Assembly (NCBI GenBank): GCA_002163135.1
Contig: MAAN01000013.1
Location: 62,001-126,000 of the forward strand
DNA: 64,000 bases
Reading direction: 5' to 3'
Source: Alphaproteobacteria bacterium 46_93_T64
GTDB lineage: Bacteria > Pseudomonadota > Alphaproteobacteria > Sneathiellales > Sneathiellaceae
Shown: piece by piece, positions 686-56,594 of the stretch
How positions within the stretch are numbered: position 1 is the first letter of the stretch
Layout: each line of letters begins with the position of its first letter
The notes under the pieces: generated by a model
The model's database searches: none
Told to the model about the DNA's origin: nothing
What the model saw: only the letters and a program-made list of their open reading frames with translations
Made by a program: the position numbers and the translations under genes

Positions 686-772
686 GGGGTATCACTTATT
701 CTGATGTTGGGACAAAATATTTGTATTTGCAATTATGCCTTAGTCAAGAAAAAATGCACCGCAGGGGGAATA

Positions 773-2026: not shown

Positions 2027-2057
2027 GAATTATAACTTTAACAGGGAGCGATCTAAC

Positions 2058-3032: not shown

Positions 3033-3052
3033 GCATAAGTAGTATTTAACTT

Positions 3053-3077
3053 CGGCTTCCTCTGATTGAGGAAGCCG
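3053..3077 (+). terminator. Hairpin between dctP and dctQ (attenuator-like)
   Basis: A perfect 10-bp stem CGGCTTCCTC/GAGGAAGCCG with a TGATT loop is followed by ATTTTTC. It lies 20 bases after the dctP stop and just before dctQ. It probably acts as a partial terminator or as an mRNA stabiliser, so that the binding protein is made in excess over the permease. Confidence 0.75.
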
Positions 3078-3099
3078 ATTTTTCATGAGGGTTTTCACG

Positions 3100-5120: not shown

Positions 5121-5121
5121 G

Positions 5122-5820: not shown

Positions 5821-6770
5821 ATAGTTATATTCCAATCGTTGATATTTCGACTTTCAAAAATGGATCTCTCGATCAAAAGAAAAGCATCGCAAACCAAATT
5901 CTTGAAACAGCCGAAAATTCTGGTTTTTTCTACATTTCTGGTCATGGAATACCGGAAGAACTCACTGAACAGGCTTTTGCAACATCCAAGCGGTTCTTTG
6001 CCTTAGATCAACAGCAAAAAGCAAGTATCAGCGTGAATACTGACCAGCGTGGGTGGATGGCTCAGGGCTTAGCAACACTTGAAGGGTCAAAATCCTATGA
6101 CGCCAAAGAGATATTTTTTTGGGGATATGATGTTGATGCAAATGACCCTGATTTAGCTCTCCCCATGGTAGCCCCGAACTTGTGGCCAAACAAACATGCA
6201 CCATGGCTAAAACAAGAGCTTTCACCTTATTATCAAGCAACCTGCGCTGTTGGCGGAATAGTGATGAGGGCGCTTGCACTTGCATTCGGTCTTGAAGAAG
6301 ATTTCTTTGAAAATGTCTATAAGAAACCTCTCGCCCGTGGTCAGCTTGTCTATTACCCGCCTTTCACTGCAAAAGACGAGGCCTCCGAACGGTTTAGCGC
6401 TGCACCGCATACTGATTTCGGTGTCTTAACGCTCCTTTTGCAAGACAATAATGGTGGCCTGCAAGTTCGTGCAAGCGATGGAAACTGGATTGACGCTCCC
6501 CCTGTTGAAGGGACACTCATTTGTAATATCGGCGATCTACTGCAACGTTGGTCAAACAGAAGATTGGTCTCGACAGTACATCGTGTCATTAATAGATCTG
6601 GAAATGAGAGATACTCCATTCCCGTTTTCTTTGATCCACATTCAGCAACCAAAATCGACCCCTGTGATCTTGGAGTTTCAAGCGAAACATCTCTATATGA
6701 ACCTATTACAGCTGGTGCATATATAGCCGGGAAAAATACAAAAAATTTCAGCCAGTATTCTGAAGATTAG
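5817..6770 (+). CDS. 2-oxoglutarate/Fe(II)-dependent oxygenase, isopenicillin-N-synthase-like
   Basis: A 317-residue cytoplasmic non-haem iron oxygenase. The N-terminal DIOX_N-type domain starts with IPIVDISTF and has GFFYISGHGIP. The catalytic half has the iron ligands in APHTDFGVLTLL (H-x-D) and STVHRVIN (distal His), and RYSIPVFFDP gives the Arg-x-Ser that binds the 2-oxoglutarate carboxylate. The ATG at 5817 overlaps the upstream stop as ATGA and is preceded by TGGAG. Likely role: hydroxylation or oxidative cleavage of the compound imported by the TRAP system. It is the last gene before a hairpin. Confidence 0.85.
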   Translation: MNSYIPIVDISTFKNGSLDQKKSIANQILETAENSGFFYISGHGIPEELTEQAFATSKRFFALDQQQKASISVNTDQRGWMAQGLATLEGSKSYDAKEIFFWGYDVDANDPDLALPMVAPNLWPNKHAPWLKQELSPYYQATCAVGGIVMRALALAFGLEEDFFENVYKKPLARGQLVYYPPFTAKDEASERFSAAPHTDFGVLTLLLQDNNGGLQVRASDGNWIDAPPVEGTLICNIGDLLQRWSNRRLVSTVHRVINRSGNERYSIPVFFDPHSATKIDPCDLGVSSETSLYEPITAGAYIAGKNTKNFSQYSED

Positions 6771-41067: not shown

Positions 41068-41820
41068 CTACGCGCCGGCAGAGTTAAATAGTCGGCCTGG
41101 ACCCATCGAAAGCGTTGGGAGGCCGGAGAGACTAAGCATATGCCATGCCAGAGCTTGATTACTTGAGATAACGGCTTTGCCGATTGTTGCCTCAGCTTTT
41201 TCAATAATCTCAAAACTCCGGAGATTTGTGCAGGAAGCGAATACCGCGTCAACATCTTCAAGTTCGCCAACTCGGCAAATAGCCTCATAGACCGATTGAG
41301 GCGATATTCGGGCGACCACAGCTTCTTCACTTTGTTCAAAAGATCCGAAAGTGGATATCGTGAACCCGCTTTCCTCTATCAACATCTGCATCGCCTTCGA
41401 AACGTCAGCAACATATGGTGATACAAATCCCAGTCTTTTGACACCAAGAAACTCAAAAGCAGCTCTTGCGGCTGTAATAGGATCCGTTGTTTTTGCGTTT
41501 GGGTGATATTGGTGAATGGCAGCAGCAATCTTTTCGGGCCCAATGACCGTTGCACCAGACGTACAAGCGTAACCAACGACATCCATCTCACGAGCAGAGG
41601 GAAGCAATGAGGCCGTATAGGGCAGGTCCGCCTCCATCTGCGCCAAGGTTTCTGCTGTCACTTCCCGTGCACAAGGAATACGTGAATGATAGAGAGCCGC
41701 CTCGCTTTTACCGATCACGTGGCTAACTTCAGATTCCAGTGTTTCGTCGTTCTGCAGAACAATCACACCAATTGCCGCCTTGGCAGAAGCACCGTCATCG
41801 AGGGAGAAAGATAGTTTCAT
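41068..41820 (-). CDS. Asp/Glu racemase / maleate isomerase-family protein (EutA-like)
   Basis: A 250-residue protein of the superfamily that includes maleate cis-trans isomerase, arylmalonate decarboxylase and EutA of ectoine clusters. The two expected cysteines are in VVGYACTSGATVIG (near residue 87) and VFASCTNLRSF (near residue 200), with FVSPYVADVS between. It is the last gene of the Pot-type transporter operon, ten bases after the M24 hydrolase gene. EutA-like function in breakdown of an ectoine-related compound is a reasonable inference, not proved. Confidence 0.78.
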   Translation of the reverse strand: MKLSFSLDDGASAKAAIGVIVLQNDETLESEVSHVIGKSEAALYHSRIPCAREVTAETLAQMEADLPYTASLLPSAREMDVVGYACTSGATVIGPEKIAAAIHQYHPNAKTTDPITAARAAFEFLGVKRLGFVSPYVADVSKAMQMLIEESGFTISTFGSFEQSEEAVVARISPQSVYEAICRVGELEDVDAVFASCTNLRSFEIIEKAEATIGKAVISSNQALAWHMLSLSGLPTLSMGPGRLFNSAGA

Positions 41821-41829
41821 CGAAATTGC

Positions 41830-42966
41830 CTATAGTATGGGAAGCTCTGGTGCCGCTCGCTTCGTCAGAAAACGAGCTTCTCCATCGGTGATCAAAATAT
41901 TCTCTTCATGAACCATCATCTTGTCCTCGCCGATCTGCATGCTCGGCTCAAGAGTAATGACCATATTCTCTTTTAAAACTGTCTCATCAAATGAGATAAG
42001 AGAGGGTGCTTCTGTCAATTGCATTCCGAGGCCATGCCCAAAACGACCGACACTACCGCCAACGTTGCCAACGACTTCACCCATGGCTGCAAAAACTTCA
42101 CGGCACGTCACACCTGGACGCGCGATCTGTATAGCCGCGTCAGTTGCTTTAAATAGACGCTCATACGTAAATTTGGATCTGTCATCCGCGGCTCCAATGG
42201 CATAATTGCGGTCAAAATCGCAAAAATAGCCGGCGAGCGTTGCCCCGGTATCCAGCATCAAAATATCGCCTTTTTCAAGAGGCTTCATGCTTGGCGGTGA
42301 AATGACATCGCCATATCCGCCCTGCCCTGCACCGCCAACTAGATAAGGGACATCCTCAGCCCCTTGCTGCAGTAAGTCTATTTTGAAGGACGTAAAACAC
42401 TCCCTCAATGGTTTACCTTCATAAAACAGTTCAGATGCCCGTCCAAAACTTGCAGACGCGATATCACAAATCTCTGAAATCTTTTCAATTTCGGCTGTTG
42501 ATTTCACCATGCGCACAGATTGAATAAGCGGACTAATATCAACGATATCCGTATGCTTCAATTCAGTTTGAATTTTTTGAAAATCGGCGAGCGGCATGCG
42601 CAGATAGCTCTCCCGCCCCATCATCATTCCAATTCGTGATAACCCTCGCAATGTGTCCGTTACCAACGATACTCCATCGTCATCCGCATGCGGAGACGCC
42701 CAGCTCCGAATATCGTCAATCCAGGTCGCCTGCATCAAAGCTGCACCAATTTCAGGAATGATCGTAATCGGCTTACCAGTAGCGGGGACGATCAGAAACC
42801 ACGGCCTTGTTGGGCTTTGCCAAAACAGTGTCCGAAATCCGGTAAAATACCGCATTTCGGCTTCACTGGTGAAAAGGGCCGCGTCTACCCCTAGACTATG
42901 CAGGCCCTTTTGAAAGCACTCCAGCCGGGCTTCATATTCGCTGACTTGGAAATCGACTTCCGCCAT
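41830..42966 (-). CDS. M24-family metallohydrolase (Xaa-Pro peptidase/ectoine hydrolase type)
   Basis: A 378-residue creatinase/aminopeptidase-P-fold protein. The N-terminal domain has MRYFTGFRTLFWQSPTRPWF. The catalytic pita-bread domain carries the metal ligands: the two aspartates in MLDTGATLAGYFCDFDRN, His in GRFGHGLGMQLTE, Glu in ITLEPSMQ and Glu in MVHEENILIT. It is a distant paralogue of DoeA at 54852-56033. It follows the permeases in the Pot-type operon and probably hydrolyses the imported compound, for example an amide or cyclic amidine. Confidence 0.85.
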   Translation of the reverse strand: MAEVDFQVSEYEARLECFQKGLHSLGVDAALFTSEAEMRYFTGFRTLFWQSPTRPWFLIVPATGKPITIIPEIGAALMQATWIDDIRSWASPHADDDGVSLVTDTLRGLSRIGMMMGRESYLRMPLADFQKIQTELKHTDIVDISPLIQSVRMVKSTAEIEKISEICDIASASFGRASELFYEGKPLRECFTSFKIDLLQQGAEDVPYLVGGAGQGGYGDVISPPSMKPLEKGDILMLDTGATLAGYFCDFDRNYAIGAADDRSKFTYERLFKATDAAIQIARPGVTCREVFAAMGEVVGNVGGSVGRFGHGLGMQLTEAPSLISFDETVLKENMVITLEPSMQIGEDKMMVHEENILITDGEARFLTKRAAPELPIL

Positions 42967-43006
42967 TCCAACCTCCAGAGTGTATTATACGTGCTAAAAA
43001 AGTAGG

Positions 43007-43849
43007 TTAGACGATCCCACGCAGCCGTTCATTTCGTCTTCTCAGGAGTTCGAGTGTTGCCAAGAGCGCTATGGAAATCATCACCAGAATAGTCGCGACA
43101 GCAAGGATGGTCGGACTAATTTGCTCGCGAATACCCGCCCACATTTGACGTGGAATAGTCCGCTGTTCAAATCCGGACAAGAATAACGCCACAACAACCT
43201 CGTCGAACGATGTGATGAAAGCAAAAAGGCTCCCTGAAATCATACCAGGCATGATCAAAGGCATCGTCACTTTGAAAAAAGCATAGGTTGGTGTCGCACC
43301 CAGATTGTTTGCTGCACGAATAAGGCTTTGATCAAAACCTGTCAGTGTCGCAGTGACTGTAATCACCACAAATGGTGTCCCCAGCGCAGCATGTGCCAAC
43401 ACCATGCCAATCATCGTTTGCGCTAACCCTACATGAGAGTAAAAGAAATACATGCCCGCGCCAGAAATAATCAGTGGCACAATCATTGGCGAGATCAGCA
43501 AGCCCATAATCGCACCGCGATATGGCATTTCAGGGCGGCTCAATCCAAGCGCCGCCAAAGTTCCTAACGTGGTGGCCATGATAGTAGCAAAGAAAGCAAT
43601 TATAACGCTGTTTTTCGCTGAGTGGATCCATTGCTTATTGTTGATAATGTCCTCATACCAACGCATGGAAAAAGCGTCAGGGTTCAGAGTCAACATACCC
43701 TCGGTAAAGCTGAAATAAGGTTCGGCATTAAATGAGAGCGGAATAACCACAAGAATAGGGGCTATCAGGAATAGGAGAATTAGAGCGCAAATTACTCTAA
43801 AGCTGTAATACCAAGTTGTCTCAAGTGGTCCTGCATAACTAGGTAACAT
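43007..43849 (-). CDS. ABC transporter permease, PotC type
   Basis: A 280-residue permease with six hydrophobic segments and the cytoplasmic loop DQSLIRAANNLGATPTYAFFKV, the EAA-equivalent of spermidine/putrescine-type systems. GGGAT precedes the ATG. It partners with the PotB-type permease just upstream. Confidence 0.92.
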   Translation of the reverse strand: MLPSYAGPLETTWYYSFRVICALILLFLIAPILVVIPLSFNAEPYFSFTEGMLTLNPDAFSMRWYEDIINNKQWIHSAKNSVIIAFFATIMATTLGTLAALGLSRPEMPYRGAIMGLLISPMIVPLIISGAGMYFFYSHVGLAQTMIGMVLAHAALGTPFVVITVTATLTGFDQSLIRAANNLGATPTYAFFKVTMPLIMPGMISGSLFAFITSFDEVVVALFLSGFEQRTIPRQMWAGIREQISPTILAVATILVMISIALLATLELLRRRNERLRGIV

Positions 43850-43855
43850 AATTTT

Positions 43856-45121
43856 TTATCCCAATTTCATGTTATCAACACCGACGATCTTCGTATAAGC
43901 CCAATACAGAACCATAACGCCGACCAACAATAGACCACCAAGCGCAGCCGCTAATCCCCAGTTCAATGATTTCTGCATATGGAATGCGATGAAATTGGAA
44001 ATCATTTGTCCTGTTCGTCCACCAACCAGTGCCGGTGTAATGTAATATCCAACAGATAGAATGAATACTAACAGTGATCCTGCGCCGATCCCTGGAACTG
44101 TTTGAGGCGCATAAACCTTGACGAAAGCACGAACTGGATTGGCCCCAAGAGACAATGCTGCTCGCATGTAACTGGGCGGTATCGTTTTCATGACTGAAAA
44201 GAGAGGTAATATCATGAAGGGCAGCAATATATGAGTCATTGCGATTACCGTACCCGTCTGGTTGTACATCATCTGGAGCCGATCTTCATCAGCCACAACG
44301 TGTAACCAAACCAATAGCTCGTTTATCACCCCATTGGTTTGTAACAGAACAATCCACGATGTTGTCCGTACCAGCAACGATGTCCAGAAGGGCAGCAAAA
44401 CCATAATCATTAAAAGGTTGGAGTATTTTGCCGGTAGTGTCGCAAGCAGATAAGCCACAGGGTAGCCAAGCACAAGGCACAAAAGAGTAACAGCCAAACT
44501 GATCCATAAGGTTCGGCCGAAAATCGTCACATAAATCTGGCGGTCTTCGTCCTGTTGGACAATGTTATTATCTGAGTCATAGCGCATATCAACAGCGGCA
44601 AGATATTGGGTCGCCGTATATTCGTTGCCCAGCCGTTTAAACGTAACCCAGATATCCCGTTCGCCCCAGATGGGGTTCGCTTTTATAAGGGCGTCCTTGA
44701 ACGGCGGCTGCATCTTTTTGGCTTTACGAGCGCTTGAAGTAATTAGGCTTCTAACGCCGCTCATTTCAAAGTTCATGCGTGTCGCAACACGACCAATTGT
44801 TTTATTTTTTCTTGCCTCTACCATGTCCCTTACCAAGGCTGCATAAGCCGCCTCTTCGGGCACGCCCTTGCCATCCCATTGTTCGAGAATAGCGACGGTT
44901 TGCGGCATATTCTCATGAATAATGGGGTTGTCTACGCTTCTGAAAAGCATCAGAAAAATAGGAAAAAGAAAAGTAACAAAAACGAATACGCCTAAAGGAA
45001 GAACCAATCCCGCCGCAATCAACTTGCGCCGACGAAGTGTTTTTTGCAGACGCTGCTTGAGCGGTGTTCCGTCCGCTGCAAGAACCGCATGTGGCGTGGC
45101 TGCCATAACTTGTTCGCTCAC
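43856..45121 (-). CDS. ABC transporter permease, PotB type, with large periplasmic insertion; GTG start
   Basis: A 421-residue permease, longer than typical PotB (about 285) because about 130 mainly polar residues lie between the first and second membrane segments. The transport core has the loop SYMRAALSLGANPVRAFVKVY. The start is GTG at 45121 with AGGAG seven bases upstream; an internal ATG at 45106 is less well placed. It is separated from the binding-protein gene by a hairpin. Confidence 0.9.
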   Translation of the reverse strand: MSEQVMAATPHAVLAADGTPLKQRLQKTLRRRKLIAAGLVLPLGVFVFVTFLFPIFLMLFRSVDNPIIHENMPQTVAILEQWDGKGVPEEAAYAALVRDMVEARKNKTIGRVATRMNFEMSGVRSLITSSARKAKKMQPPFKDALIKANPIWGERDIWVTFKRLGNEYTATQYLAAVDMRYDSDNNIVQQDEDRQIYVTIFGRTLWISLAVTLLCLVLGYPVAYLLATLPAKYSNLLMIMVLLPFWTSLLVRTTSWIVLLQTNGVINELLVWLHVVADEDRLQMMYNQTGTVIAMTHILLPFMILPLFSVMKTIPPSYMRAALSLGANPVRAFVKVYAPQTVPGIGAGSLLVFILSVGYYITPALVGGRTGQMISNFIAFHMQKSLNWGLAAALGGLLLVGVMVLYWAYTKIVGVDNMKLG

Positions 45122-45174
45122 GTCTGGTCTCCTAATACGTCAATTCGAAAAATTCAGAAAACAAATCAAAAAAT

Positions 45175-45207
45175 AGGGCCGGGTATGATTAACTCATTCC
45201 CGGCCCT
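45175..45207 (-). terminator. Hairpin between binding-protein and permease genes
   Basis: A 9-bp perfect stem AGGGCCGGG (45175-45183) with CCCGGCCCT (45199-45207). Read leftward it is followed by ATTTTTT, so it has terminator form although the two permease genes continue downstream in the same direction. Confidence 0.8.
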
Positions 45208-45211
45208 TGTT

Positions 45212-46294
45212 TTATTTAGCTAACCAAGCGCTAAATTTTTCGTTCAACTCATCTTGATGATCAGCCCAGAATGCAAAGTCATTTTGAAGTGCATTTTTGA
45301 AGTTTGCTGGTGCTGTCGGCATATGAGGCTTCATATCAATACCGGCTTCAGCATGTTTACCAACAAGCGGTGCCGCTGATTTGCGGACCGGACCATATGA
45401 AATCCATCTTGCTTGATCAGCATTGCGTTTAGTATCTGTAGAAAAAGCAATAAATTTCAAAGCTTCTGCTTTGTTTGGCGCACCTTTTGGAATGACCCAA
45501 AGATCAAGATCCCAAACCTGTCCGTCCCAAACAATTACAAACGGTTTTTTCTCAGTGACTTGCGCACCGAAAATACGGCCGTTATAGGCAGTTGTCATGG
45601 TAACTTCACCATCAGCCAGCATCTGTGCTGGCTGCGCACCAGTTTCCCACCAAACTGTGACATCTTTAATAGTATCAAGTTTAGCCAACGCCCGAGCAAC
45701 GCCTGTTTTTGTAGTCAAAGTGCTATAAACATCTGCTGGCGCTACACCGTCAGCCATCAACGCCATTTCAAGATTGGCTTTTGGACCTTTACGAAGACCA
45801 CGTTTGCCAGGGAAATCTTTTACGTTAAAGAAGTCAGCCATAGTTTGTGGCGCACTGCCAGAAAACTTTGTCTTGTCATAGGCGTAAACTGTTGACCAAA
45901 CGATTGAAGCAACGCCGCAATCAACAAGTGTACCTTGAATGAAGTCATCTGTTGCTGCAGTTCCGTCATCACCCGCTGGCAAGATGGATGGATCAATTTC
46001 TTCAAGAAGACCCTCATCGCAGCCACGAACAGCGTCGGACAATTCAACATCAACAAGATCCCAAATGACCTTACCGGATTCAACCTGGGCTTTCACCTCA
46101 GCCAGACCGCCATTATAGTCTTCGGAATTAATCTTTTTGCCGCCCATGGCTTCCCATGGCTTGTGGTAGGCTTCTACCTGGCTTTTTGTGTATCCGCCGC
46201 CCCACGAAACAACTGTAAGGTTGCCCGCAAAAGCAGTAGTGGCAGCAAATAACCCAACTGCCGCAATGCTTGTTAATAAGAGTGATTTTTTCAT
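45212..46294 (-). CDS. ABC transporter solute-binding protein, PotD type
   Basis: A 360-residue periplasmic binding protein of the spermidine/putrescine family. The signal peptide is MKKSLLLTSIAAVGLFAATT plus AFA. The mature start LTVVSWGGGYTKSQVEAYHKPW is typical, as is VWWETGAQPAQMLADGEVTMTTAYN in the second lobe. It feeds the PotB/PotC-type permeases. Catabolic neighbours suggest an amino-acid-derived ligand rather than a polyamine for growth. Confidence 0.93.
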   Translation of the reverse strand: MKKSLLLTSIAAVGLFAATTAFAGNLTVVSWGGGYTKSQVEAYHKPWEAMGGKKINSEDYNGGLAEVKAQVESGKVIWDLVDVELSDAVRGCDEGLLEEIDPSILPAGDDGTAATDDFIQGTLVDCGVASIVWSTVYAYDKTKFSGSAPQTMADFFNVKDFPGKRGLRKGPKANLEMALMADGVAPADVYSTLTTKTGVARALAKLDTIKDVTVWWETGAQPAQMLADGEVTMTTAYNGRIFGAQVTEKKPFVIVWDGQVWDLDLWVIPKGAPNKAEALKFIAFSTDTKRNADQARWISYGPVRKSAAPLVGKHAEAGIDMKPHMPTAPANFKNALQNDFAFWADHQDELNEKFSAWLAK

Positions 46295-46427
46295 AATACT
46301 TCACTTCTCCCTGTCTCAAAATACTGCCGCTTCAAGAGCGACATTTCCCAAAATTTGTTCTGATTGCTTCCAGATTTTTAAAATCAATGTTACCGGAGGC
46401 AATTAGCAGAATATTCTATTTCACTTA

Positions 46428-47519
46428 TTACGCATCAAGCGCACGGCAATCTTCGAGCGCCCATCCGATTTTTACTGGACTGCCTTCAACCAACTGAGTT
46501 AGGCCAGACGCATTAGGCACCTTGATGATAAAATCATCACGTCCGCAGACATTTATCCGGGTCCGAATATGATCGCCCAGATAAATTAGTTCTTCAACTT
46601 TCCCATTGAAAATATTCGGATATTTTCCATCTTCCGGATTTATCTCAACTCTCTCAGGCCTCAAAGACAAAGAGGATCGTTCACCAACGTTTCCGGCATT
46701 AACATCCAGAGCGCTAACCACACCGCCGCCTGGTATTTCGACAACACAACCAGATCCATTCTTTTCTTTTATTATGCCTTCAAGCTTATTGTTCTCGCCA
46801 ATAAACTGGGCAACAAACGCGTTTTCAGGTTGTTCATACAGCTCATCTGGCGGCGCGATCTGCTGGATAACACCGTCATTGAAGACCGCCACTCGCGACG
46901 ACATTGTCAAAGCTTCCGACTGATCATGTGTCACATAGACAACAGTAACACCCAGGCTTTCATGAATATGCTTGATCTCATACTGCATCTGCTCGCGCAG
47001 TTGCTTATCAAGCGCTCCCAACGGCTCATCCATCAGTACGAGTTCTGGATCAAACACTAGCGCTCTGGCTACAGCCACACGTTGCTGCTGACCACCTGAA
47101 AGTTGAGCTGGACGCCGATTACCAAAATCACCGAGCTGCACCATATCTAGGGCTCTCTTAACTTTGGTTTCCATCTCCGCCTTATTCATGCCGCGAACCT
47201 GCAAAGGAAATGCTAGGTTCTCAAACACTGTCATGTGCGGGAAAAGCGCGTAATTTTGGAAAACCATACCAATACCGCGCTTGTGGGGCGCCACGTCGTT
47301 AATTGATTTTCCATCCAAGGTGATCTCACCATGGGTAGCGGGCTCAAATCCGGCCAGCATCATCAGACAGGTTGTCTTTCCTGATCCCGATGGGCCGAGC
47401 ATGGTCAGGAATTCGCCACGTGCAACATCTAAATTTAAGTTCTTTACGACGAGTGTTTCACCGTCATAGCTCTTCTGGACTTCTTGAAACCGCACCAGCG
47501 GATCATTCGAGTCTGACAT
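46428..47519 (-). CDS. ABC transporter ATP-binding protein, PotA type
   Basis: A 363-residue ATPase. Walker A GPSGSGKTT, Q-loop FQNYALFPHM, signature LSGGQQQRVAVARAL and Walker B LVLMDEPLGALD are all intact, with a C-terminal TOBE domain. It is the first gene of the operon that continues with binding protein, two permeases, M24 hydrolase and racemase-family protein. Confidence 0.95.
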   Translation of the reverse strand: MSDSNDPLVRFQEVQKSYDGETLVVKNLNLDVARGEFLTMLGPSGSGKTTCLMMLAGFEPATHGEITLDGKSINDVAPHKRGIGMVFQNYALFPHMTVFENLAFPLQVRGMNKAEMETKVKRALDMVQLGDFGNRRPAQLSGGQQQRVAVARALVFDPELVLMDEPLGALDKQLREQMQYEIKHIHESLGVTVVYVTHDQSEALTMSSRVAVFNDGVIQQIAPPDELYEQPENAFVAQFIGENNKLEGIIKEKNGSGCVVEIPGGGVVSALDVNAGNVGERSSLSLRPERVEINPEDGKYPNIFNGKVEELIYLGDHIRTRINVCGRDDFIIKVPNASGLTQLVEGSPVKIGWALEDCRALDA

Positions 47520-47857
47520 GTGCTCTCCCAGCTGGCAGTATTTTTACTGCCGTAATTTTAAAAGCCGCCCCAATCGGCCATCGTTGCTTAATCGTCTATA
47601 TAGTCCGGGTTGTTCCTTTGCGGAACTTCACCTCAAAACGATCAGCTTTTTTACGGTAACACATTGTTTACAATTTTCACAAACCATAATTTGAACTCTA
47701 TTATTAGTAGAATGTGGAATAAATATTTTTTCCAATTGGGATATAACCATATCGGCCCGTTTTTCAGAGATCCTCAACAAATTCTCCAGAAAATCTCACA
47801 AAACCACTAAAAATAAATCGTTGTCCCGCCGCCTTTATTAAACTCAAAATACGTAAT
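47520..47857. promoter_or_regulatory. Gap upstream of the Pot-type operon; no gene
   Basis: About 340 AT-rich bases between the oxidase stop and the ATPase start, both leftward. It must contain the operon promoter. I see no clear terminator, operator or RNA element. Confidence 0.4.
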
Positions 47858-49123
47858 TTAGCTAAACCGCTGCGGACTATAGGGCGCAATATCGAGCGAG
47901 AGTTTTTCCCCATTTACAATTGATGCAACTATTTTTCCAGTGATCCCGCCAAGTGTTAGTCCGACATGCTGGTGCCCAAATGCGAGAATAACGTTTCTGT
48001 TTTCTGGTAATTGACCAATTACAGGCAAGGCATCAGGCATTGACGGTCGAAAACCAAGCCAACGACTTTCAATGGCGCCCAGATCTGGAAGCACCTGCTT
48101 CGCCGATTTTTCTAAATACTGCAATACATTCCCTGAGTATTCTGTATCAAGTCCCCCGAGTTCCACAGTACCCGCAATCCGAATTTGTTGATCCAAAGGG
48201 GTCATGTAAAAGCCCTTTTCTGCCCAACCAACAGGACGGCTAAGAGACGTCTTTTCTGCGTTTAGCATTAGATGGTACCCCCGTTCAGTATCCAGCGGTG
48301 TTCTGCTGGAAAATGACGGGAGCAACGCCTTGGAATGAGCACCGGCTGCTACAACGACTTTGCTTGCTTGAAGTTCGTTTTCACCATGACAAATACGAAC
48401 ATCTTCTGTGCCGTTGGGTTCTATGGTCTTCACGTCATCACGTATAAATGTCCCGCCGTTTGCAATAAAATTTTCTACCAGTCGCTCCATTAATTTTCCA
48501 GGAGAAAGAAACTGAAAGGCTTGGTCAAAAAGCACGCCTTTGTGAAATATGGGTTGTAGGCAAGGCTCCAGATCATGGATCTCATGCGCGGAAACTTCCT
48601 GAAGTGAAACGTCACGTTCTTGCCGGGCTAGTATACCCGAGTAGGCTTCCTTATACCCTTTCTCTGTGCTGTAGAGATACAGGCACCCCCGACGTCGAAT
48701 GAGGTCCAGCGCATTCGCGGCCTCAATCAATGGCATAAGGCCACTTTCCGCATGCGCAAGTAAAACGGACAAAGCATCAATAATATGTGCCACTTTGTTG
48801 GGACGGCAGTTGGCAAGGAATTCCGCGAGCCAAGGTATCATTCGATGGATCGTGCGCCATTTAACCGAGAGCGGACTATCTTTGCTCAAGATCATACCCA
48901 GCGCCTGTAATGGTAGAGACGGTGAGTTTATTGGAATGCAGGCGTAATTCGCAAATGTGCAGGCGCTACCGCTTGCCGTGCTTTCACCCGGCGCACCTCG
49001 ATCCAGAAGACAAACGTTTTTTCCAGATTTCTGCAACCATAACGCACAAGAAATACCGACCATCCCGGCCCCGACAACAGCGACATCATACTTTGCGCCT
49101 ATTTTACTGGAAAATTTACTAAT
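47858..49123 (-). CDS. DadA-type FAD-dependent amino-acid oxidase with probable ATT start codon
   Basis: A D-amino-acid dehydrogenase-family flavoprotein. The first ATG in frame (49063) falls inside the FAD-binding motif. The frame is open upstream to a stop at 49124-49126 and encodes SKFSSKIGAKYDVAVVGAG, which completes the expected GxGxxG motif. No ATG, GTG or TTG exists in that stretch; the first codon, ATT at 49123, has GGAGG nine bases upstream, so ATT is the likely start (421 residues). The C-terminus has FGHQHVGLTLGGITGK. It is 70 bp after the Lrp gene, same strand. It probably deaminates a D- or imino acid related to the Pot/DpaL pathway. Confidence 0.8.
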   Translation of the reverse strand: MSKFSSKIGAKYDVAVVGAGMVGISCALWLQKSGKNVCLLDRGAPGESTASGSACTFANYACIPINSPSLPLQALGMILSKDSPLSVKWRTIHRMIPWLAEFLANCRPNKVAHIIDALSVLLAHAESGLMPLIEAANALDLIRRRGCLYLYSTEKGYKEAYSGILARQERDVSLQEVSAHEIHDLEPCLQPIFHKGVLFDQAFQFLSPGKLMERLVENFIANGGTFIRDDVKTIEPNGTEDVRICHGENELQASKVVVAAGAHSKALLPSFSSRTPLDTERGYHLMLNAEKTSLSRPVGWAEKGFYMTPLDQQIRIAGTVELGGLDTEYSGNVLQYLEKSAKQVLPDLGAIESRWLGFRPSMPDALPVIGQLPENRNVILAFGHQHVGLTLGGITGKIVASIVNGEKLSLDIAPYSPQRFS

Positions 49124-49193
49124 CTATACATTCCTCCATAATACCCTGAATCACAGGTTCGACATTATTCTCTCTAGCGAGCTGATATGCCGT

Positions 49194-49667
49194 TTATGGC
49201 ATACCTACCGGTATACTAAGACCAACTTTTACACTGTCCATAACAACATTTGTGTGGAAACGCTTCACGTTCGAATTGTGAAAGAAGAAGCGACGTGTAA
49301 AGTCTTCATAGTCTTTCATGTCTCGTGCCGTGAGGATCAAGATAAAATCAGCATTTCCTGTCACATAATAACATTGCATAACCTCTGGTGTGTTCAGCAT
49401 GGTTTCCTTAAATTGATCCAAAAATTCAGGACGCTCCCTCTCCAACGTTACTTCCACTATCATGGTCAAGCTACGCCCAATGAGTTCTCGATTTAAAACA
49501 GCAATTTCTTCAGCGATTACGCCTGTATCACGCATTTTTTTGAGCCGTTTTTGGCAAGTTGTCGGGGACAACCCAACCTTCTCGCTCAATTGTTCAGCCG
49601 TTAGGCGGCTGTTCTTTTGAACCAGTGTCAGCAGCTTTAAGTCAAATTCATCCAAAGAAAACTCCAC
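49194..49667 (-). CDS. Lrp/AsnC-family transcriptional regulator
   Basis: A 157-residue regulator with an N-terminal helix-turn-helix (DLKLLTLVQKNSRLTAEQLS, then EKVGLSPTTCQKRLKK) and a C-terminal RAM domain for amino-acid binding (MQCYYVTGNADFILILTARD). It lies between divergent dpaL and the DadA-type oxidase gene, and probably controls both. It is a paralogue of DoeX at 53362-53838. Confidence 0.92.
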   Translation of the reverse strand: MEFSLDEFDLKLLTLVQKNSRLTAEQLSEKVGLSPTTCQKRLKKMRDTGVIAEEIAVLNRELIGRSLTMIVEVTLERERPEFLDQFKETMLNTPEVMQCYYVTGNADFILILTARDMKDYEDFTRRFFFHNSNVKRFHTNVVMDSVKVGLSIPVGMP

Positions 49668-49798
49668 CGATTAAATTATGCATATATTGATCAAAACTAG
49701 ACTTTTTTCATCCCTACTACGGAACTATTATATTATTTTAATCAAAAAAAACAAAATATAGTTACGTTTATTGTTATTTATTTTTTGCGAGGCCGAGC

Positions 49799-51025
49799 AT
49801 GGACATACAGGATTTCACGGGTGCAACATTGAAGCATCATCACAATGAAAATTATGACCAAAGTCCCGATTACTCGGCGGAACTCGCATCTGTTTTAGAT
49901 AAAGAGAGTTGTGACAATGCCTATCGCACCATCAGTGACTGGGATGGCTACGCACCTTCTCCACTGGTTGCTCTTTCCGGACTGGCCAAAAAAATCGGTA
50001 TTGCCGACATTCTTTATAAACACGAAGGCGGGCGGTTCGGTCTTGGCAGTTTCAAAGCTTTGGGCGGTGCCTACTCGGTTCTACAACTTCTCATTCAAGA
50101 AGTATCTAAAGCAACATCGATGCAAATCAGCGCAGATGACATTATTTCCGGAGAATATGCGACCATCATTCGTGAAATTACAGTCGTAACTGCGACCGAT
50201 GGAAATCATGGACGATCCGTTGCATGGGGCGCCGAGAAATTTGGATGTAACTGTTTTATTTACATGCATGCGGGCGTGAGTAACGGGCGTGCAAAAGCGG
50301 TTGAAGCGTTTGGTGCTACCGTCATCTGGGTGGATGGGAATTATGACCAATCCGTCCATGAGGCCGCAGAGGCTGCCGCAAAAAACGATTGGTTCGTAGT
50401 CTCTGATACTTCCTATGAAGGTTATACAGAACTCCCCAAAAATGTTATGGCGGGTTACACGGTAATGACAACAGAAATCATCCAGCAACTGCCAAAAGAC
50501 AAGCTACCAACGCATGTCTTTGTGCAAGGAGGCGTTGGAGGGCTGGCAGGTGCCGTTTGCGCACATCTATGGCAATCTTTGGGGGCCGAACGCCCTCGGT
50601 TCGTAATTGTTGAGCCCGATCGCGCGGATTGTTTGTTTCAAAGTGGCCTTCGAGGGGAAATAACGGATGTTTCCATCGAGGAAGAGACCATTATGGCGGG
50701 CTTATCATGCGGTGAAGTTTCTAGCTTAGCATGGCAAATTCTTCTCGGCGGCACCAATGATTTTGTGACGATTGAGGATGAACTGATTGCGCCGACTATG
50801 AAACTTTTGGCAAAAGGTGTTGGAGAGGATCAACCGCTTGTCGCTGGCGAATCGGCTGTTGCTGGACTTGCTGGCGCAATTGCTGCGCGGATGAACAACG
50901 AGCTGACCGCAAAACTTGGCCTTGATGCGTCTTCACGTATTCTAATTTTTGGAACAGAAGGGGCAACAGATCCGGCTATCTATGAAAAGATAGTGGGTTT
51001 GTCTCCTGCCGATGTTGGAGTCTGA
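49799..51025 (+). CDS. dpaL: Diaminopropionate ammonia-lyase
   Basis: A 408-residue fold-type-II PLP enzyme that converts 2,3-diaminopropionate to pyruvate and two ammonia. The Schiff-base lysine is Lys86 in GLGSFKALGGAY; TATDGNHGRSVAWGA and the PLP-phosphate loop FVQGGVGGLAGAV are characteristic, and the C-terminal FGTEGATD is conserved. GCGAGG lies upstream of the ATG. It is monocistronic and divergent from the Lrp regulator. It suggests that a diamino acid is an intermediate of the pathway served by the nearby Pot-type transporter. Confidence 0.9.
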   Translation: MDIQDFTGATLKHHHNENYDQSPDYSAELASVLDKESCDNAYRTISDWDGYAPSPLVALSGLAKKIGIADILYKHEGGRFGLGSFKALGGAYSVLQLLIQEVSKATSMQISADDIISGEYATIIREITVVTATDGNHGRSVAWGAEKFGCNCFIYMHAGVSNGRAKAVEAFGATVIWVDGNYDQSVHEAAEAAAKNDWFVVSDTSYEGYTELPKNVMAGYTVMTTEIIQQLPKDKLPTHVFVQGGVGGLAGAVCAHLWQSLGAERPRFVIVEPDRADCLFQSGLRGEITDVSIEEETIMAGLSCGEVSSLAWQILLGGTNDFVTIEDELIAPTMKLLAKGVGEDQPLVAGESAVAGLAGAIAARMNNELTAKLGLDASSRILIFGTEGATDPAIYEKIVGLSPADVGV

Positions 51026-51740: not shown

Positions 51741-53117
51741 TTAGATAATTGCGAAGACTTCTTTGACCGCTTCAGCCATGGCGCCCACAATAACATCTGC
51801 CTCGTTTTTGGTTAGGCAGAGCGGCGGTGCGAATCCCAGAATATCACCCTGCGGCATAGCCCGTGCGATAACACCGCGTTTCAAAAGGGCCGCCGCAATT
51901 TTAGGACCCGTCATCTGTGACGGATCCAGAAATGTTCGTTTTTCCTTATCGGCTATTAATTCAACAGCCAACATCAACCCTTCACCGCGAACGTCACCCA
52001 CATTCGCATGATCACCAATCGCGTCTGCCATTGCCTGTTTGAAATAGGGACCAATCTTACCCGCATTATCGACCAATCCCATGCTGTCAATAAGCTTCAA
52101 ATTGGCGACACCGGCCGCAGCGCAAACAGGATGTGCGGAATATGTCCATCCATGACCGATCGCGCCATATTCATCTGTCCCTTGTTCCAGAACTTTCCAG
52201 ACTTTGTCAGACACGATAGAGGCGGATAAAGGCGCGTAAGCAGACGTCAGGCCCTTTGCAGAAGTGATAATATCCGCTTCAATTCCATAATGATCAGAAC
52301 CGAACATGGTGCCCAACCGGCCAAATCCTGTTACGACTTCATCCGCAATCAGCAAAATGTCGTATTTTTTCAAAACAGCCTGGATGGCGCCCCAGTAACC
52401 TGAGGGTGGTGGGACAAGACCACCTGTTCCCAAAACTGGCTCTCCAATAAAGGCTGCGATGGTGTCAGGTCCTTCTTTTTGGATCAGCTCATCCAATTTT
52501 GCAGCACACTGCGCGGAAAACTCTTCTTCACTCAGACTTAGATCATCCCGGCGGTAATAATAGGGCGCTTCGGTATGAACAACTTGCGTTAGCGGTAGAT
52601 CGAATTTTTTATGAAACAGCTCAAGTCCTGTCAAAGAGCCTGTCATCAAACCTGATCCGTGATAGCCCCTCCAACGCGAAATAATTTTCTTCTTTTCAGG
52701 GCGGCCGAGGACATTGTTGTAATACCAGACCAGTTTGATATTGGTTTCATTGGCATCGGATCCAGATAGACCAAAATAAACCTTACTCATATTGTCTGGC
52801 GCACGGTCAATAATCATTTTTGACAACGTGATCGACGCTTCTGTGCCATGTCCGACATAAGAATGGTAATACGCAAGTTCTTTAGCTTGGGCAGCCATGG
52901 CATCCGCGATTTCAGAACGACCATACCCAACATTCACACAATAAAGACCCGCAAAGGCGTCGAGAAATTTGTTTCCGTCCCGGTCTTCAATGTGCACACC
53001 TGAACCGCCTGTAATGATGCGATTAGAAAGTTCACCACGGGAAAATTGAGCCAAATGCGTAGATGGATGGAAGAAATTCTCGCGATCCCATTGGCTGAGT
53101 TGATCATTTGTAAGCAT
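51741..53117 (-). CDS. doeD: L-2,4-diaminobutyrate transaminase (class III aminotransferase)
   Basis: A 458-residue PLP-dependent class III aminotransferase. The PLP lysine is Lys288 in TSAKGLTSAYAPL; ILLIADEVVTGFGR and SGSDANETNIKLVWYY are typical. The ATG at 53117 has GGAGA upstream and fits the family start; the frame extends to 53219 without a ribosome site. Next to doeA, doeB and doeX it most likely converts 2,4-diaminobutyrate to aspartate semialdehyde in ectoine breakdown. A gene for the following step (DoeC, semialdehyde dehydrogenase) is not in the window. Confidence 0.85.
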   Translation of the reverse strand: MLTNDQLSQWDRENFFHPSTHLAQFSRGELSNRIITGGSGVHIEDRDGNKFLDAFAGLYCVNVGYGRSEIADAMAAQAKELAYYHSYVGHGTEASITLSKMIIDRAPDNMSKVYFGLSGSDANETNIKLVWYYNNVLGRPEKKKIISRWRGYHGSGLMTGSLTGLELFHKKFDLPLTQVVHTEAPYYYRRDDLSLSEEEFSAQCAAKLDELIQKEGPDTIAAFIGEPVLGTGGLVPPPSGYWGAIQAVLKKYDILLIADEVVTGFGRLGTMFGSDHYGIEADIITSAKGLTSAYAPLSASIVSDKVWKVLEQGTDEYGAIGHGWTYSAHPVCAAAGVANLKLIDSMGLVDNAGKIGPYFKQAMADAIGDHANVGDVRGEGLMLAVELIADKEKRTFLDPSQMTGPKIAAALLKRGVIARAMPQGDILGFAPPLCLTKNEADVIVGAMAEAVKEVFAII

Positions 53118-53361
53118 TGATTTCTCCAGAATTATTGCGACCGGCTCATATCCGATCGTGGCAGTTATATTTAGTGTCAGAAAAGGCCTCGATACCCTGT
53201 CGCGATCCCTCGCGGCCAAAATCGGATTTGGACACTAGAGGAATTTCTGTAGTGAGTGCTTTTATAATCGCCCAGAATTTCAGTGGAGAATTCGCGGAAG
53301 AGGTCAAAAATCAGTGTAATCATCCGAAGACCCGAAAAGTCTTCCGATTTGCGCTTATCTG

Positions 53362-53838
53362 CTACTCATCCAAAATAGAGAGCGGAACAATCGAGATATC
53401 TTTCACCGGCTTTGTAACCACGTAAGTATAGTAGCGCTTGAGACCGATATCTGCCTCCAGCATTTCATCCACTTTACGCTGATAGGCGTCAACCCCTTTG
53501 CAAACCAGCTTCAGAAAGTAGTCGATGCCTCCGCCAACGGCCCAGCATTCGAACACCTCGTCCATTTCCATAACAGCTTTTTCAAACCGTTCGAAATCTT
53601 CAGCCCGATGGCTGACAAGTTCTACTTGCATAAAAATAGTTGTCGAAGAGCCTAATTTCGCAAGCGAAAGGCGGGCTCCATATCCCTCAATTATCCCCAG
53701 TTTTTCAAGTCTCTTTAGTCTCTCCCAACAAGCCGTGGGGGAGAGATGAACCTGAACTGCCAGTTGATTTTTTGGGATACGGCCATCCTGTTGCAGAACG
53801 CTCAATATTTTCAGATCACGGTCATCAAGTTTAATCAT
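53362..53838 (-). CDS. doeX: Lrp/AsnC-family regulator of ectoine degradation
   Basis: A 158-residue regulator with a helix-turn-helix (LKILSVLQQDGRIPKNQLAV, then QVHLSPTACWERLKRL) and a RAM domain (VFECWAVGGGIDYFLKLVCK). It lies between doeB and doeD in the same direction, the usual place of doeX/asnC in ectoine-use operons. It probably senses an ectoine-derived intermediate such as N-acetyl-diaminobutyrate or diaminobutyrate. Confidence 0.9.
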   Translation of the reverse strand: MIKLDDRDLKILSVLQQDGRIPKNQLAVQVHLSPTACWERLKRLEKLGIIEGYGARLSLAKLGSSTTIFMQVELVSHRAEDFERFEKAVMEMDEVFECWAVGGGIDYFLKLVCKGVDAYQRKVDEMLEADIGLKRYYTYVVTKPVKDISIVPLSILDE

Positions 53839-53857
53839 ATCATTCTACTACCCAGCT

Positions 53858-54847
53858 TCAAACTGTAACGGAGACAACACCGACAATGTCACCCATACCA
53901 ATCAGACCCGGAAAATGCCGTGCTGTAAAGATACCGTCAAGTGGGCTGTGATATTCTTTGGGAATGCTGCCTGTGCGATTGATATCATGAACCTTGGCAA
54001 TAAGTTGACCGGCCTTGACGGCTTCTCCCAATTCAACGCATAGCTCCATCAAACCGGTGCTTTCACTGGAAATGAAGCATCGATGATCCGGCATATCCAG
54101 ATTGGTTGTTTCCCCAATCTCAGGAGTACCTTCCATCACGCCTGCATGAAGAAGTAGATTGCGAATACCTTTCTTTGCAATCAAAACACTAGCGGCGGAG
54201 GCTGAACCGCCGCCACCAAGTTCCGTGGAGATAAAGATTTTTCCCATTTCTTCTGCTGAAGTATCATACATCCCGGCTGCATCCACCTCGAGCATCATAA
54301 GGGAATAAGGCGCGTTAAAAGCTTGCATGGCTGCCACACATTGCTCCTGCTGCTTTTTGTTATCCAAAACGTGGGCTGCGCAAAACGGCACAAAATCCAG
54401 CGTTTTTCCTCCGGAATGAATATCCAGAACATAATCTGCCATTGGCAACAATGTACGCTGAAAATAATCAGCAATCTTCTGGGTCACGGATCCGTCCGGG
54501 CTTCCCGGAAAAACCCGGTTCATATTCCCCTTATCAATTGGCGACGTACGTGTTGCACTTTTAAAGGCCGGGTAATTCATCCCGGGGACAATGATAACCC
54601 GCCCAGAGATTTCATCTGCAGTGATCTTCCCCGCAAGATCAAACAACGCAATCGGCCCCTCATATTCGTCTCCGTGATTGCCACCTGTTAGTAAGACGGT
54701 TGGGCCATCTCCATTTTTTGCTACCGTGATGGGGACCATAATTGACCCCCAAGCAGAAGTGTCATGGGAATGAGGTAGTTTCAGGAAACCATGCTGTACG
54801 CCATCTTGATCATAATCAACAGTGGCAGAAATAGGGTTTGCGCGCAT
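53858..54847 (-). CDS. doeB: N-alpha-acetyl-L-2,4-diaminobutyrate deacetylase
   Basis: A 329-residue zinc hydrolase of the succinylglutamate desuccinylase/aspartoacylase (AstE/AspA) family. Zinc ligands are visible in LLTGGNHGDEYEGP (His and Glu) and VLDIHSGG (His); MNRVFPGSPDGSVTQKIADY is the substrate-side loop. It removes acetate from N-acetyl-diaminobutyrate produced by DoeA, giving 2,4-diaminobutyrate. Four bases separate it from doeA, so the two are cotranscribed. Confidence 0.92.
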   Translation of the reverse strand: MRANPISATVDYDQDGVQHGFLKLPHSHDTSAWGSIMVPITVAKNGDGPTVLLTGGNHGDEYEGPIALFDLAGKITADEISGRVIIVPGMNYPAFKSATRTSPIDKGNMNRVFPGSPDGSVTQKIADYFQRTLLPMADYVLDIHSGGKTLDFVPFCAAHVLDNKKQQEQCVAAMQAFNAPYSLMMLEVDAAGMYDTSAEEMGKIFISTELGGGGSASAASVLIAKKGIRNLLLHAGVMEGTPEIGETTNLDMPDHRCFISSESTGLMELCVELGEAVKAGQLIAKVHDINRTGSIPKEYHSPLDGIFTARHFPGLIGMGDIVGVVSVTV

Positions 54848-54851
54848 ATTT

Positions 54852-56033
54852 TTAGTCTTTAATCATGAGTTGACGAGGTACAGAAGCCAGAAACTCAACT
54901 TCTCCTTCTGTAATAACAATGCTTTCTGTGGTCTCTAGGCCCCAGTTATCCATCCATAGACCCGTCATGAAATGAAACGTCATACCAGGTTCAAGGACCG
55001 TTTTATCGCCGGAGCGTAGGCTCATTGTCCGCTCGCCCCAATCTGGCGGGTAACTTAATCCAATTGGGTATCCTGTCCTGCTATCCTTGAAAATGCCGTG
55101 TTTTTTCAGAACAGCGAAAAAGGCATGCGCAATATCTTCACAAAGATTGCCGGCTTTTGCCATTTCAAGACCAGCTTCCATACCTTCTTGGATGGCTTTG
55201 TCTGCATCAATAAAGGTTTGCGATGGTTTGCCTAGAAAGATCGTGCGGGATAAGGGGGCGTGGTACCGGCGGTAACATCCTGCAATTTCAAAAAAAGTTC
55301 CCTCCCCTGCTCTGAGTGGCTTGTCATCCCAAGTAAGATGAGGCGCGGCGGCATCCTCCCCAGATGGCAGGAGGGGAACAATCGCAGGGTAATCCCCGCC
55401 AAAACCGTCCGCTCCTCTAATGCCTGTGTCATAAATTTCAGCAACCAAATCATTTTTGCGCATTCCAGGCTCGATAACATCGAAAATGCGTTTGTGCATT
55501 TCTTCAACAATCCGCCCCGCGCGGCGCATATAGACGAGTTCCTGTTCCGATTTGACGGCACGGCACCAGTTGACCATCGAGTTTGCGTCCTTGATGGTTG
55601 CGTTTGGAAGGTGCTTGACCAAAGAAAGATAGGCGGCGGCTGAAAAATAATAATTATCCATTTCAACGCCGATATTGAGAGAGCCCCAACCCCGATCAGC
55701 CAACAATCCGCTAAGGTAATCCATAGGGTGACGTTCAGTGGTCTGAATATAGGTCTCCGGATAAAAAAGAATATTTTCATCCTTCATAAAGACCGTACGT
55801 CGTGCGCCATTTGCATCTTGCTTGCGACCATACCAAATTGGTTCACCTTCAAGAGGAAGAACTACACATTGATGGACATAAAAAGACCAGCCGTCATACC
55901 CTGTAAGCCAAGCCATATTGGAAGGATCGGTAACAATCAAAAGATCGATACCTTTCGCACTCATCGCTGTTCGCGCTTTAGCAATGCGATCTTGATATTC
56001 TGCGAGAGTAAAGGGCAGATCAATGCCAGACAT
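54852..56033 (-). CDS. doeA: Ectoine hydrolase
   Basis: DoeA (EutD) opens the ectoine ring to N-acetyl-diaminobutyrate. This 393-residue M24-fold protein shows GYDGWSFYVHQCVVLPLEGE near residue 50-70 and EGTFFEIAGCYRRYHAPLSR, segments I recognise from ectoine hydrolases. The usual aspartate metal ligands of Xaa-Pro peptidases are replaced, which is normal for DoeA. The ATG at 56033 is chosen because GGAG lies six bases upstream; the ATG at 56045 has none. First gene of the doeA-doeB-doeX-doeD run. Confidence 0.93.
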   Translation of the reverse strand: MSGIDLPFTLAEYQDRIAKARTAMSAKGIDLLIVTDPSNMAWLTGYDGWSFYVHQCVVLPLEGEPIWYGRKQDANGARRTVFMKDENILFYPETYIQTTERHPMDYLSGLLADRGWGSLNIGVEMDNYYFSAAAYLSLVKHLPNATIKDANSMVNWCRAVKSEQELVYMRRAGRIVEEMHKRIFDVIEPGMRKNDLVAEIYDTGIRGADGFGGDYPAIVPLLPSGEDAAAPHLTWDDKPLRAGEGTFFEIAGCYRRYHAPLSRTIFLGKPSQTFIDADKAIQEGMEAGLEMAKAGNLCEDIAHAFFAVLKKHGIFKDSRTGYPIGLSYPPDWGERTMSLRSGDKTVLEPGMTFHFMTGLWMDNWGLETTESIVITEGEVEFLASVPRQLMIKD

Positions 56034-56594
56034 GACATACTCCATGTTATCTTAACTGTTAAAAATGACGCCGACATCCACTAAGGATCCAACATTTAGA
56101 TTACTGCTGATTAACACCCAACAAAAGTCCGAAAAAACGAAATAATCAAAGCCCTGCTATTTTTGATAAATTCCCAGCACTCCATCACCCGCATTAATTG
56201 AGAACAAAAATTGATAAAACAACTAACGGCGAGAAATTTTTGCTCATGTTAAAAATTGGCATTAAATCTTGATATTTTGTAAATTATTACACTCTAATGT
56301 AGCTGTTATTTAGTCGAGAAGCATTGTGGGGGGTCAAACAACAATACCGAAACGCCCAAGCGGCATACGCACAGGTTGAATTTGAAATAGTTTATAACTT
56401 GAAATCTAATAACTATTTATCTTCAAATGCATATGACTGTTGTCTAATTTATTGAAAATCGTAACCATCAAGGAAAAATAATCCCATACTCAAATCAATT
56501 TCGGTCAATAATTGCACCAAAATGCACTTGAGCAAACACAAAAGGAAATTGATAATCAATAGAATATGCATTCAATTTTCTCGGGAGGCCAAGA
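56034..56594. promoter_or_regulatory. AT-rich divergent region between doeA and the response regulator; no gene
   Basis: About 560 bases holding the doe promoter and the promoter of the two-component genes. No coding frame with a ribosome site and no clear palindrome stood out. Confidence 0.4.

Follow-up and report, generated by a model that had tools for sequence, protein, structure and literature searches.

A putative catabolic gene set related to ectoine utilisation, with a diaminopropionate ammonia-lyase, in an alphaproteobacterial genome

Examination of a 64,000-nucleotide stretch of the genome of Alphaproteobacteria bacterium 46_93_T64 (contig MAAN01000013.1, positions 62,001 to 126,000; hereafter the window) revealed, beside the doe operon for ectoine catabolism, a block of nine genes at 41068-51025 that includes an M24-family hydrolase, a EutA-like protein of the Asp/Glu-racemase/maleate-isomerase superfamily, a Pot-type importer, an Lrp/AsnC regulator and the diaminopropionate ammonia-lyase DpaL. 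With slightly better than even confidence, we propose that this module is a catabolic set paralogous to ectoine utilisation and directed at a solute with a 2,3-diaminopropionate skeleton, either N-acylated or in the form of a cyclic amidine or amide. The proposal draws on the conserved neighbourhood, the association with DoeA, an operon shared with doe genes in another lineage, the fold of the hydrolase, the catalytic residues, the interchange of two kinds of lyase and the way in which the reductive urate pathway ends. What the sequences show directly is the gene content, the conservation of catalytic residues, the linkage and the genome-level tie to ectoine catabolism. The parts belong to known families, and the set as a whole is widespread but uncharacterised; no description of it or of its product route was found in the open-licence papers searched.

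Conservation of the gene grouping

The grouping of the lyase, the M24 hydrolase and the EutA-like protein is not due to chance. We opened 90 loci around matches to the M24 hydrolase, 80 from genomes (the best 80 of 554 confirmed candidates) and 10 from plasmids (of 30 plasmid matches); being best matches, they are biased to near relatives. Within 7 kb of the hydrolase gene, 72 of these loci carry a DpaL-type lyase or a shorter DpaL-like lyase, 78 a EutA-like gene, 41 an Lrp-type gene and 40 an M20 hydrolase. These counts were taken from a tblastn listing, as a listing of the longest open reading frames (ORFs) hid true genes in GC-rich loci. In an even sample of the class, a lyase or a EutA-like gene was found nearby in 25 of the 28 loci whose M24 hydrolase is at least 48% identical, and in 6 of the 25 loci with a more distant one, the window genome itself standing outside these 53 loci. 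Because the neighbours hold at 48% identity and above, and mostly not below, this value marks the edge of the functional subfamily. Of the 385 genomes sampled from the class, 53 have the M24 family, 29 of them at the level of identity at which the neighbours hold. Six contigs are common to the named and the class samples (L071/L150, L072/L151, L077/L164, L089/L173, L122/L176 and L125/L174), so that the residue counts given below (144/145, 110/110, 50/52 and 43/43) hold some sequences twice.

Every gene named in the first-pass annotation is present in the block. Eight of them, lrp to eutA-like, are read from the minus strand; dpaL is on the opposite strand and diverges from lrp. Within the same genus, three genomes (G005, G012 and G018) carry the short DpaL-like lyase, the M24 hydrolase and the EutA-like protein beside Pot genes, G012 with doe genes alongside as well. 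In the sister genome G007, a single contig holds the binding protein (truncated where the contig stops), PotA, DadA, Lrp, DpaL and doe genes in that order. Among the other arrangements, Aliiroseovarius has M20-dpaL-M24-eutA and Vibrio has M24-BCCT-M20 with dpaL-ridA, and Sinorhizobium and Agrobacterium have dpaL-M24-ABC-carbamoylase, in which a EutA-like gene is missing.

Two other kinds of neighbour were seen beside EutA-like genes. In L102 (11442-12275) and L104, the gene directly following codes for what we read as a PhyH-like oxygenase, whose sole NCBIfam match is to chlorinating enzymes (65 bits, cut-off 226). In L060 (2406-5665) and like loci, an FAD-GcvT protein is encoded beside the EutA-like gene, divergent from a GntR gene and near an EhuB-like transporter.

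At 46.6%, the GC content of the block resembles that of the window (45.8%) and of the doe operon (47.4%), so that composition does not point to a recent arrival from another genome. Promoter-like sites were not in excess (19 versus 16.1 in shuffled sequences, standard deviation 4.2), and terminator-like sites were in modest excess (18 versus 11.4, standard deviation 3.5).

Association with ectoine catabolism

Among the 385 genomes of the class, the M24 family is present in 53, DoeA in 52 and both in 40, an odds ratio of 82; DoeA thus accompanies 40 of the 53 genomes with M24 versus 12 of the 332 without it. The share is 26 of 29 where the M24 hydrolase is at least 48% identical and 14 of 24 where it is distant, and since the latter genomes are also rich in DoeA, part of the link is due to shared lifestyle. 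The histidine gene hutU, used as a control for general heterotrophy, gave odds ratios of 6.9 with M24 and 6.0 with DoeA, and the M24-DoeA odds ratio was 44 among genomes with hutU and 87 among those without. Counted by family (171 in all), 21 of the 29 families with M24 also have DoeA.

In 6 of the 40 genomes with both, which belong to four families, the M24 gene and doeA are no more than 15 kb apart, when 0.3 would be expected under random placement in 4 Mb, and the proximity control with hutU gave 0 of 33. At L071 (8395-13587), the short DpaL-like lyase, the M24 hydrolase, the EutA-like protein, DoeA and DoeB are encoded in a single operon whose genes overlap or are separated by short gaps; L071 and L072 are of the same lineage as G216 and G308 and are to be counted as one lineage, not as four observations. 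In the window, the doe operon (doeD, doeX, doeB and doeA, called from ORFs) lies at 51741-56045 on the minus strand, with DoeA at 765 bits against the TIGR02993 cut-off of 613, and the Lrp/AsnC regulator of the module (49194-49667, minus strand; PF01037 and PF13412) is 33% identical to DoeX. On genomic evidence, the M24 set is linked to ectoine catabolism at the genome level. The first-pass annotation had described a second, ectoine-like catabolic set here, and this stands for the hydrolase, the racemase-type protein, Lrp and DpaL; its inclusion of the DadA-type oxidase does not.

The resemblance to ectoine and 5-hydroxyectoine utilisation (eutABCDE, doeABXD) is extensive: an M24 hydrolase, a EutA-type racemase, a PLP fold-II lyase, an Lrp/AsnC regulator and uptake by ABC, TRAP or BCCT systems, to which are added the physical linkage to doe genes and a hydrolase fold nearest to EutD/DoeA. 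Unlike in that system, the M24, EutA-like and lyase proteins of the module score far under the ectoine family cut-offs, the hydrolase retains its metal site, the lyase is of the DpaL type, the module lacks an aminotransferase step, and EutC is absent from the genome. Additional M24 genes in variant ectoine clusters have already been published: a 2026 survey of ectoine catabolism reports that some clusters of other phyla contain a second eutD homologue, and that an abgB-thrA-adh operon adjoins eut genes in Bacillota (PMC13188858, in excerpt). DpaL is not among the genes named in that excerpt.

A first rival explanation is that the module is an alternative route for 5-hydroxyectoine, or for an ectoine stereoisomer, in which the EutA-like protein, the DpaL-type lyase and the M24 hydrolase would replace EutA, EutB and EutC ahead of DoeA and DoeB. 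The adjoining doe operon favours it, as does the single operon with doeA and doeB at L071, in a lineage (G216, G308) without a EutC match at E 1e-70. The window genome likewise has no EutC over the cut-off of 471.65 (best match 118 bits), and for hydroxyectoine itself, action of EutA followed by EutB has been proposed (PMC5924519, in excerpt). Against it, EutC is present in 18 of the 40 genomes with both M24 and DoeA, and in 11 of 26 when the M24 hydrolase is at least 48% identical; in G012, some 13 kb separate EutC and DoeA from the module. Moreover, 13 of the 53 genomes with M24 have no DoeA, DpaL is by family a lyase of diamines, and EutD by itself converts hydroxyectoine (PMC13188858, in excerpt). 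We tried and rejected the replacement of EutC as deduced from its absence, with which the window genome agrees and the class sample does not. The frequent coexistence of EutC weakens the case for hydroxyectoine as substrate; the route is unlikely, although the use of hydroxyectoine is possible in lineages without EutC, that of the window included.

Catalytic residues of the hydrolase, racemase and lyase

The M24-family hydrolase (41830-42966, minus strand; PF00557) has a complete metal site with the ligands D239, D250, H311, E340 and E354, which align to those of the prolidase 1pv9. Of the 145 module sequences that were aligned, 144 retain all five. The DoeA protein of the same window is without these ligands. 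The hydrolase falls short of the DoeA/EutD models (TIGR02993, 38.5 bits, cut-off 613; NF038259, 51.4 bits, cut-off 575), and by sequence its nearest solved chains are prolidases. Its predicted fold (pLDDT 73.8) has as best match the EutD/DoeA chain 6yo9 (Z 29.4, rmsd 3.6, 355 residues aligned); the EutD/DoeA rows (Z 29.4, 29.2 and 28.6) are followed by an Xaa-Pro dipeptidase (27.9) and by creatinase 1chm (27.4). This nearness reflects a shared M24 fold and is not proof of function.

Creatine degradation, by creatinase and sarcosine oxidase, shares the M24 fold and a DAO-family FAD enzyme with the window locus. It differs in that creatinase acts without a metal site and, to our knowledge, the pathway includes no lyase or racemase.

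A second type of M24 protein was observed in L073 (12927-14120), L050 (5707-7035), L145, L172, L048 and L178, adjoining Pot genes, doe genes or the module, with five copies 55-74% identical to that of L050. Its best NCBIfam matches are PepQ and DoeA_2, far under the cut-offs, and it has no match in the window genome at E 1e-20.

The EutA-like protein (41068-41820, minus strand) scores 159 bits against the EutA model TIGR02990, under the cut-off of 318. It has the two active-site cysteines of its superfamily, Cys86 and Cys197 aligning to those of the maleate isomerase 4fq7, and both are kept in 110 of 110 aligned sequences.

DpaL (49799-51025, plus strand) passes PRK08206 (506 bits, cut-off 276) and TIGR01747 (322.5 bits, cut-off 274), falls short of the narrower TIGR03528 (350 bits, cut-off 532) and is far from EutB (TIGR02991, 45.5 bits, cut-off 413). 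In the alignment to the E. coli enzyme DpaL/YgeX (4d9g, E 1.7e-77), its Lys86, Asp134 and Asp203 correspond to K77, D120 and D189, a Lys-Asp-Asp set found in 50 of 52 DpaL-class sequences; of the two exceptions, one has Ala at the place of D120 and one a gap at the lysine. The short DpaL-like lyase has Lys-Ala-Asp in 43 of 43 sequences and is thus without Asp120. K77 and D120 being, as we take them to be, the two bases of the E. coli enzyme, the short lyase may act on a single stereoisomer. Unlike its E. coli counterpart, the window lyase stands with hydrolase and racemase genes, and elsewhere is replaced by this short relative. With lyase class assigned by best reference match, loci that combine M20, M24 and EutA-like genes carry DpaL in 19 cases and the short lyase in 8, so the two look interchangeable.

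DpaL also ends another pathway at diaminopropionate, the reductive urate pathway (ssnA-hyuA-ygeW-ygeY-ygeX; PMC12507026, in excerpt), in which it acts last, after an M20 hydrolase, as it might here. The differences are that the window genome has no SsnA over the cut-off, that the module uses M24 and EutA-like enzymes, and that osmolyte-type transporters accompany it in several lineages. A second rival builds on this likeness and supposes that the module degrades a diaminopropionate derivative of the ureido, hydantoin or guanidino kind, similar to albizziin or beta-guanidinoalanine. The YgeY/YgeX pair of the urate pathway, ending at diaminopropionate (PMC12507026, in excerpt), is consistent with such a substrate. 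In the opened rhizobial modules the partner enzyme is of the hydantoinase/carbamoylase type, and an agmatinase-family ureohydrolase adjoins the module in L073 (3985-4983), L095, L136, L178, L179 and L182, the last five copies being 70-72% identical to that of L073. The ureohydrolase is present in 23 of 53 genomes with M24 versus 4 of 107 without (160 of the 243 planned genomes were searched). It was not found in the window genome at E 1e-90, however, where the best SsnA score is 134 bits (TIGR03314, cut-off 455.5), and it may belong to agmatine use together with Pot. We consider this second rival quite unlikely.

Transport, the DadA-type oxidase and a proposed route

The importer genes comprise two permeases, PotC-like (43007-43849; 169 bits, cut-off 326) and PotB-like (43856-45121; 164 bits, cut-off 348), a solute-binding protein of the SBP_bac_8 family (45212-46294; PF13416, 161 bits) and an ATPase (46428-47519) that passes the PotA subfamily model TIGR01187 (377.6 bits, cut-off 355.6), all on the minus strand. 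Of the PotD-type binding protein announced by the first-pass annotation, the SBP_bac_8 protein is indeed there, with a PotD likeness that is weak (NF007048, 22.9 bits, cut-off 582). Its nearest solved chain is 8jv1, named spermidine/putrescine-binding (E 1.3e-78), followed by chains named for GABA sensing, MotA, and agropine, polyamine and mannopine binding; the AlphaFold model, built from three sequences, has a mean pLDDT of 44.2.

Matches to the binding protein at E 1e-60 or better occur in 15 of 18 genomes with M24 versus 10 of 104 without. Pot genes stand beside the module in the genus of the window and in G046, G324, G401, L073 and L145. The joint occurrence of lyase and Pot genes extends, for a DpaL-type lyase, to G007, G324 and G401 and, for the short lyase, to G005, G012, G018, G046, L073 and L145, in agreement with the expectation that the two would be found together in other genomes. 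In 20 stretches fetched for 36 binding-protein match rows, 4 had M24 and EutA-like genes, 1 (G007) had DpaL, DadA and Lrp, and 15 were without them. The Pot system is not the fixed importer that had been supposed: TRAP, Ehu-like ABC, amino-acid ABC or BCCT genes occur in its place, an EhuB-like protein at module loci reaching 178 bits against a cut-off of 190.9. As all five kinds of transporter occur with the module, deduction of the substrate from transporter type was rejected.

The same data bear on the possibility that two unrelated neighbours are involved, namely an uptake operon of the Pot/agmatine type and, independent of it, the dpaL gene. The Pot names, the name of the nearest solved binding protein and the presence of ureohydrolase together with Pot in L073, L179 and L182 would fit. 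Such a separation is most improbable in view of the lyase, M24 and EutA-like genes that occur together without Pot in most loci, of the Pot genes that join them in several families, and of the PotD score given above.

The DadA-type FAD-dependent oxidase/dehydrogenase (47858-49123, minus strand; PF01266, 192 bits; D-amino acid dehydrogenase 167 bits, cut-off 383) has no ATG, GTG or TTG ahead of its FAD motif. The first in-frame codon is an ATT at 49123 (49121-49123), after GGAGG, at which the gene probably starts; in sister genome G007 an ATG stands in this place. Among the fetched loci, a close copy (81%) is found only in G007 and a distant one (24%) in L066, so that by sequence conservation the gene would be a local add-on and is not a core member of the set. 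Elsewhere in the window, at 704-6770, a second DadA-type FAD oxidase is encoded with TRAP transporter genes, an Asp/Glu-racemase-family protein (PRK07475, 219 bits, cut-off 231) and an ORF without NCBIfam match that we read as a 2-oxoglutarate oxygenase, possibly another uptake and oxidation cluster.

If the oxidase dealkylated an N-alkylated diaminopropionate, whether N-methylated as in BMAA or opine-like, the module would serve to degrade such a compound. Besides the oxidase itself, the kinship of the binding protein with opine and GABA binding proteins is consistent with this rival, as are FAD-GcvT proteins within 7 kb in 9 of the 90 loci, whose best matches are sarcosine oxidase alpha, GcvT and demethylases, under cut-off. 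The FAD enzymes are, however, not orthologous across lineages, most loci did not show one, and such a pathway would leave the M24 and M20 hydrolases without an obvious task. This explanation is very unlikely.

For the favoured reading, a catabolic set for a diaminopropionate solute, we infer substrate, step order, stereochemistry, regulation and transport specificity as follows. The Pot-type ABC system would import a compound resembling a compatible solute, and the metal-dependent M24 hydrolase would open its ring or cleave its amide. In lineages with a linked M20 enzyme, this enzyme would remove the remaining N-acyl group; here the deacylation might fall to DoeB or to an unlinked M20 enzyme. 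The EutA-like racemase would then invert the alpha carbon for the lyase, and DpaL would yield pyruvate and two ammonia. Lrp would act as regulator of the module, and DadA may oxidise a D- or N-substituted form. No simpler order would employ every conserved enzyme, and the one given mirrors both the EutA-then-EutB proposal for hydroxyectoine (PMC5924519, in excerpt) and the last part of the reductive urate pathway (PMC12507026, in excerpt).

Several observations weigh against this reading. The closest unlinked Pot orthologues (59-72% identical) have no adjoining module gene in seven stretches from six genomes, two of these stretches lying on short contigs, and in four of the six genomes the M24 hydrolase is only distant (41-46% identical). 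The EutA-like gene was not seen in two opened rhizobial dpaL-M24 loci (L063 and L068). The genomes with M24 and without DoeA count here too, and the co-occurrence was controlled by family and hutU stratum, not by tree. Since the short lyase is without Asp120, the reaction may differ between lyase variants. DadA is not conserved as a module member, and in the window no M20 enzyme is linked to the module. Nor are the linked M20 enzymes clearly DoeB2: the one at the Phaeobacter locus scores 317.9 bits against DoeB2 and 317.3 against a general amidohydrolase model, the one at the Vibrio locus 313 and 341, all under the DoeB2 cut-off (NF038260, 550). Two unlinked M20 proteins of the window genome, which may possibly have a role in the pathway, score as high (348 and 321 bits, also under cut-off), and 10 of 14 control genomes give DoeB2-like M20 matches as well, so that this likeness is unspecific and constitutes weak evidence.

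A defined candidate for the substrate is DHMICA, a synthetic five-ring analogue of ectoine that ectoine synthase can hydrolyse (PMC5924519, in excerpt). By our own chemical reading, it is equivalent to a cyclised N-acetyl-diaminopropionate. We know of no natural source of DHMICA. It is conceivable, if on the unlikely side, that a widespread and undescribed 2,3-diaminopropionate osmolyte, for example a natural counterpart of DHMICA, exists in the sea and the root zone, and that the module is its dedicated pathway. If the favoured reading of the module holds, marine and root-associated bacteria would cycle a nitrogen-rich solute with a diaminopropionate core for which there is no known pathway, and these genes would serve as its markers. 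Many genes now annotated 'Xaa-Pro peptidase' would thereby gain a testable function.

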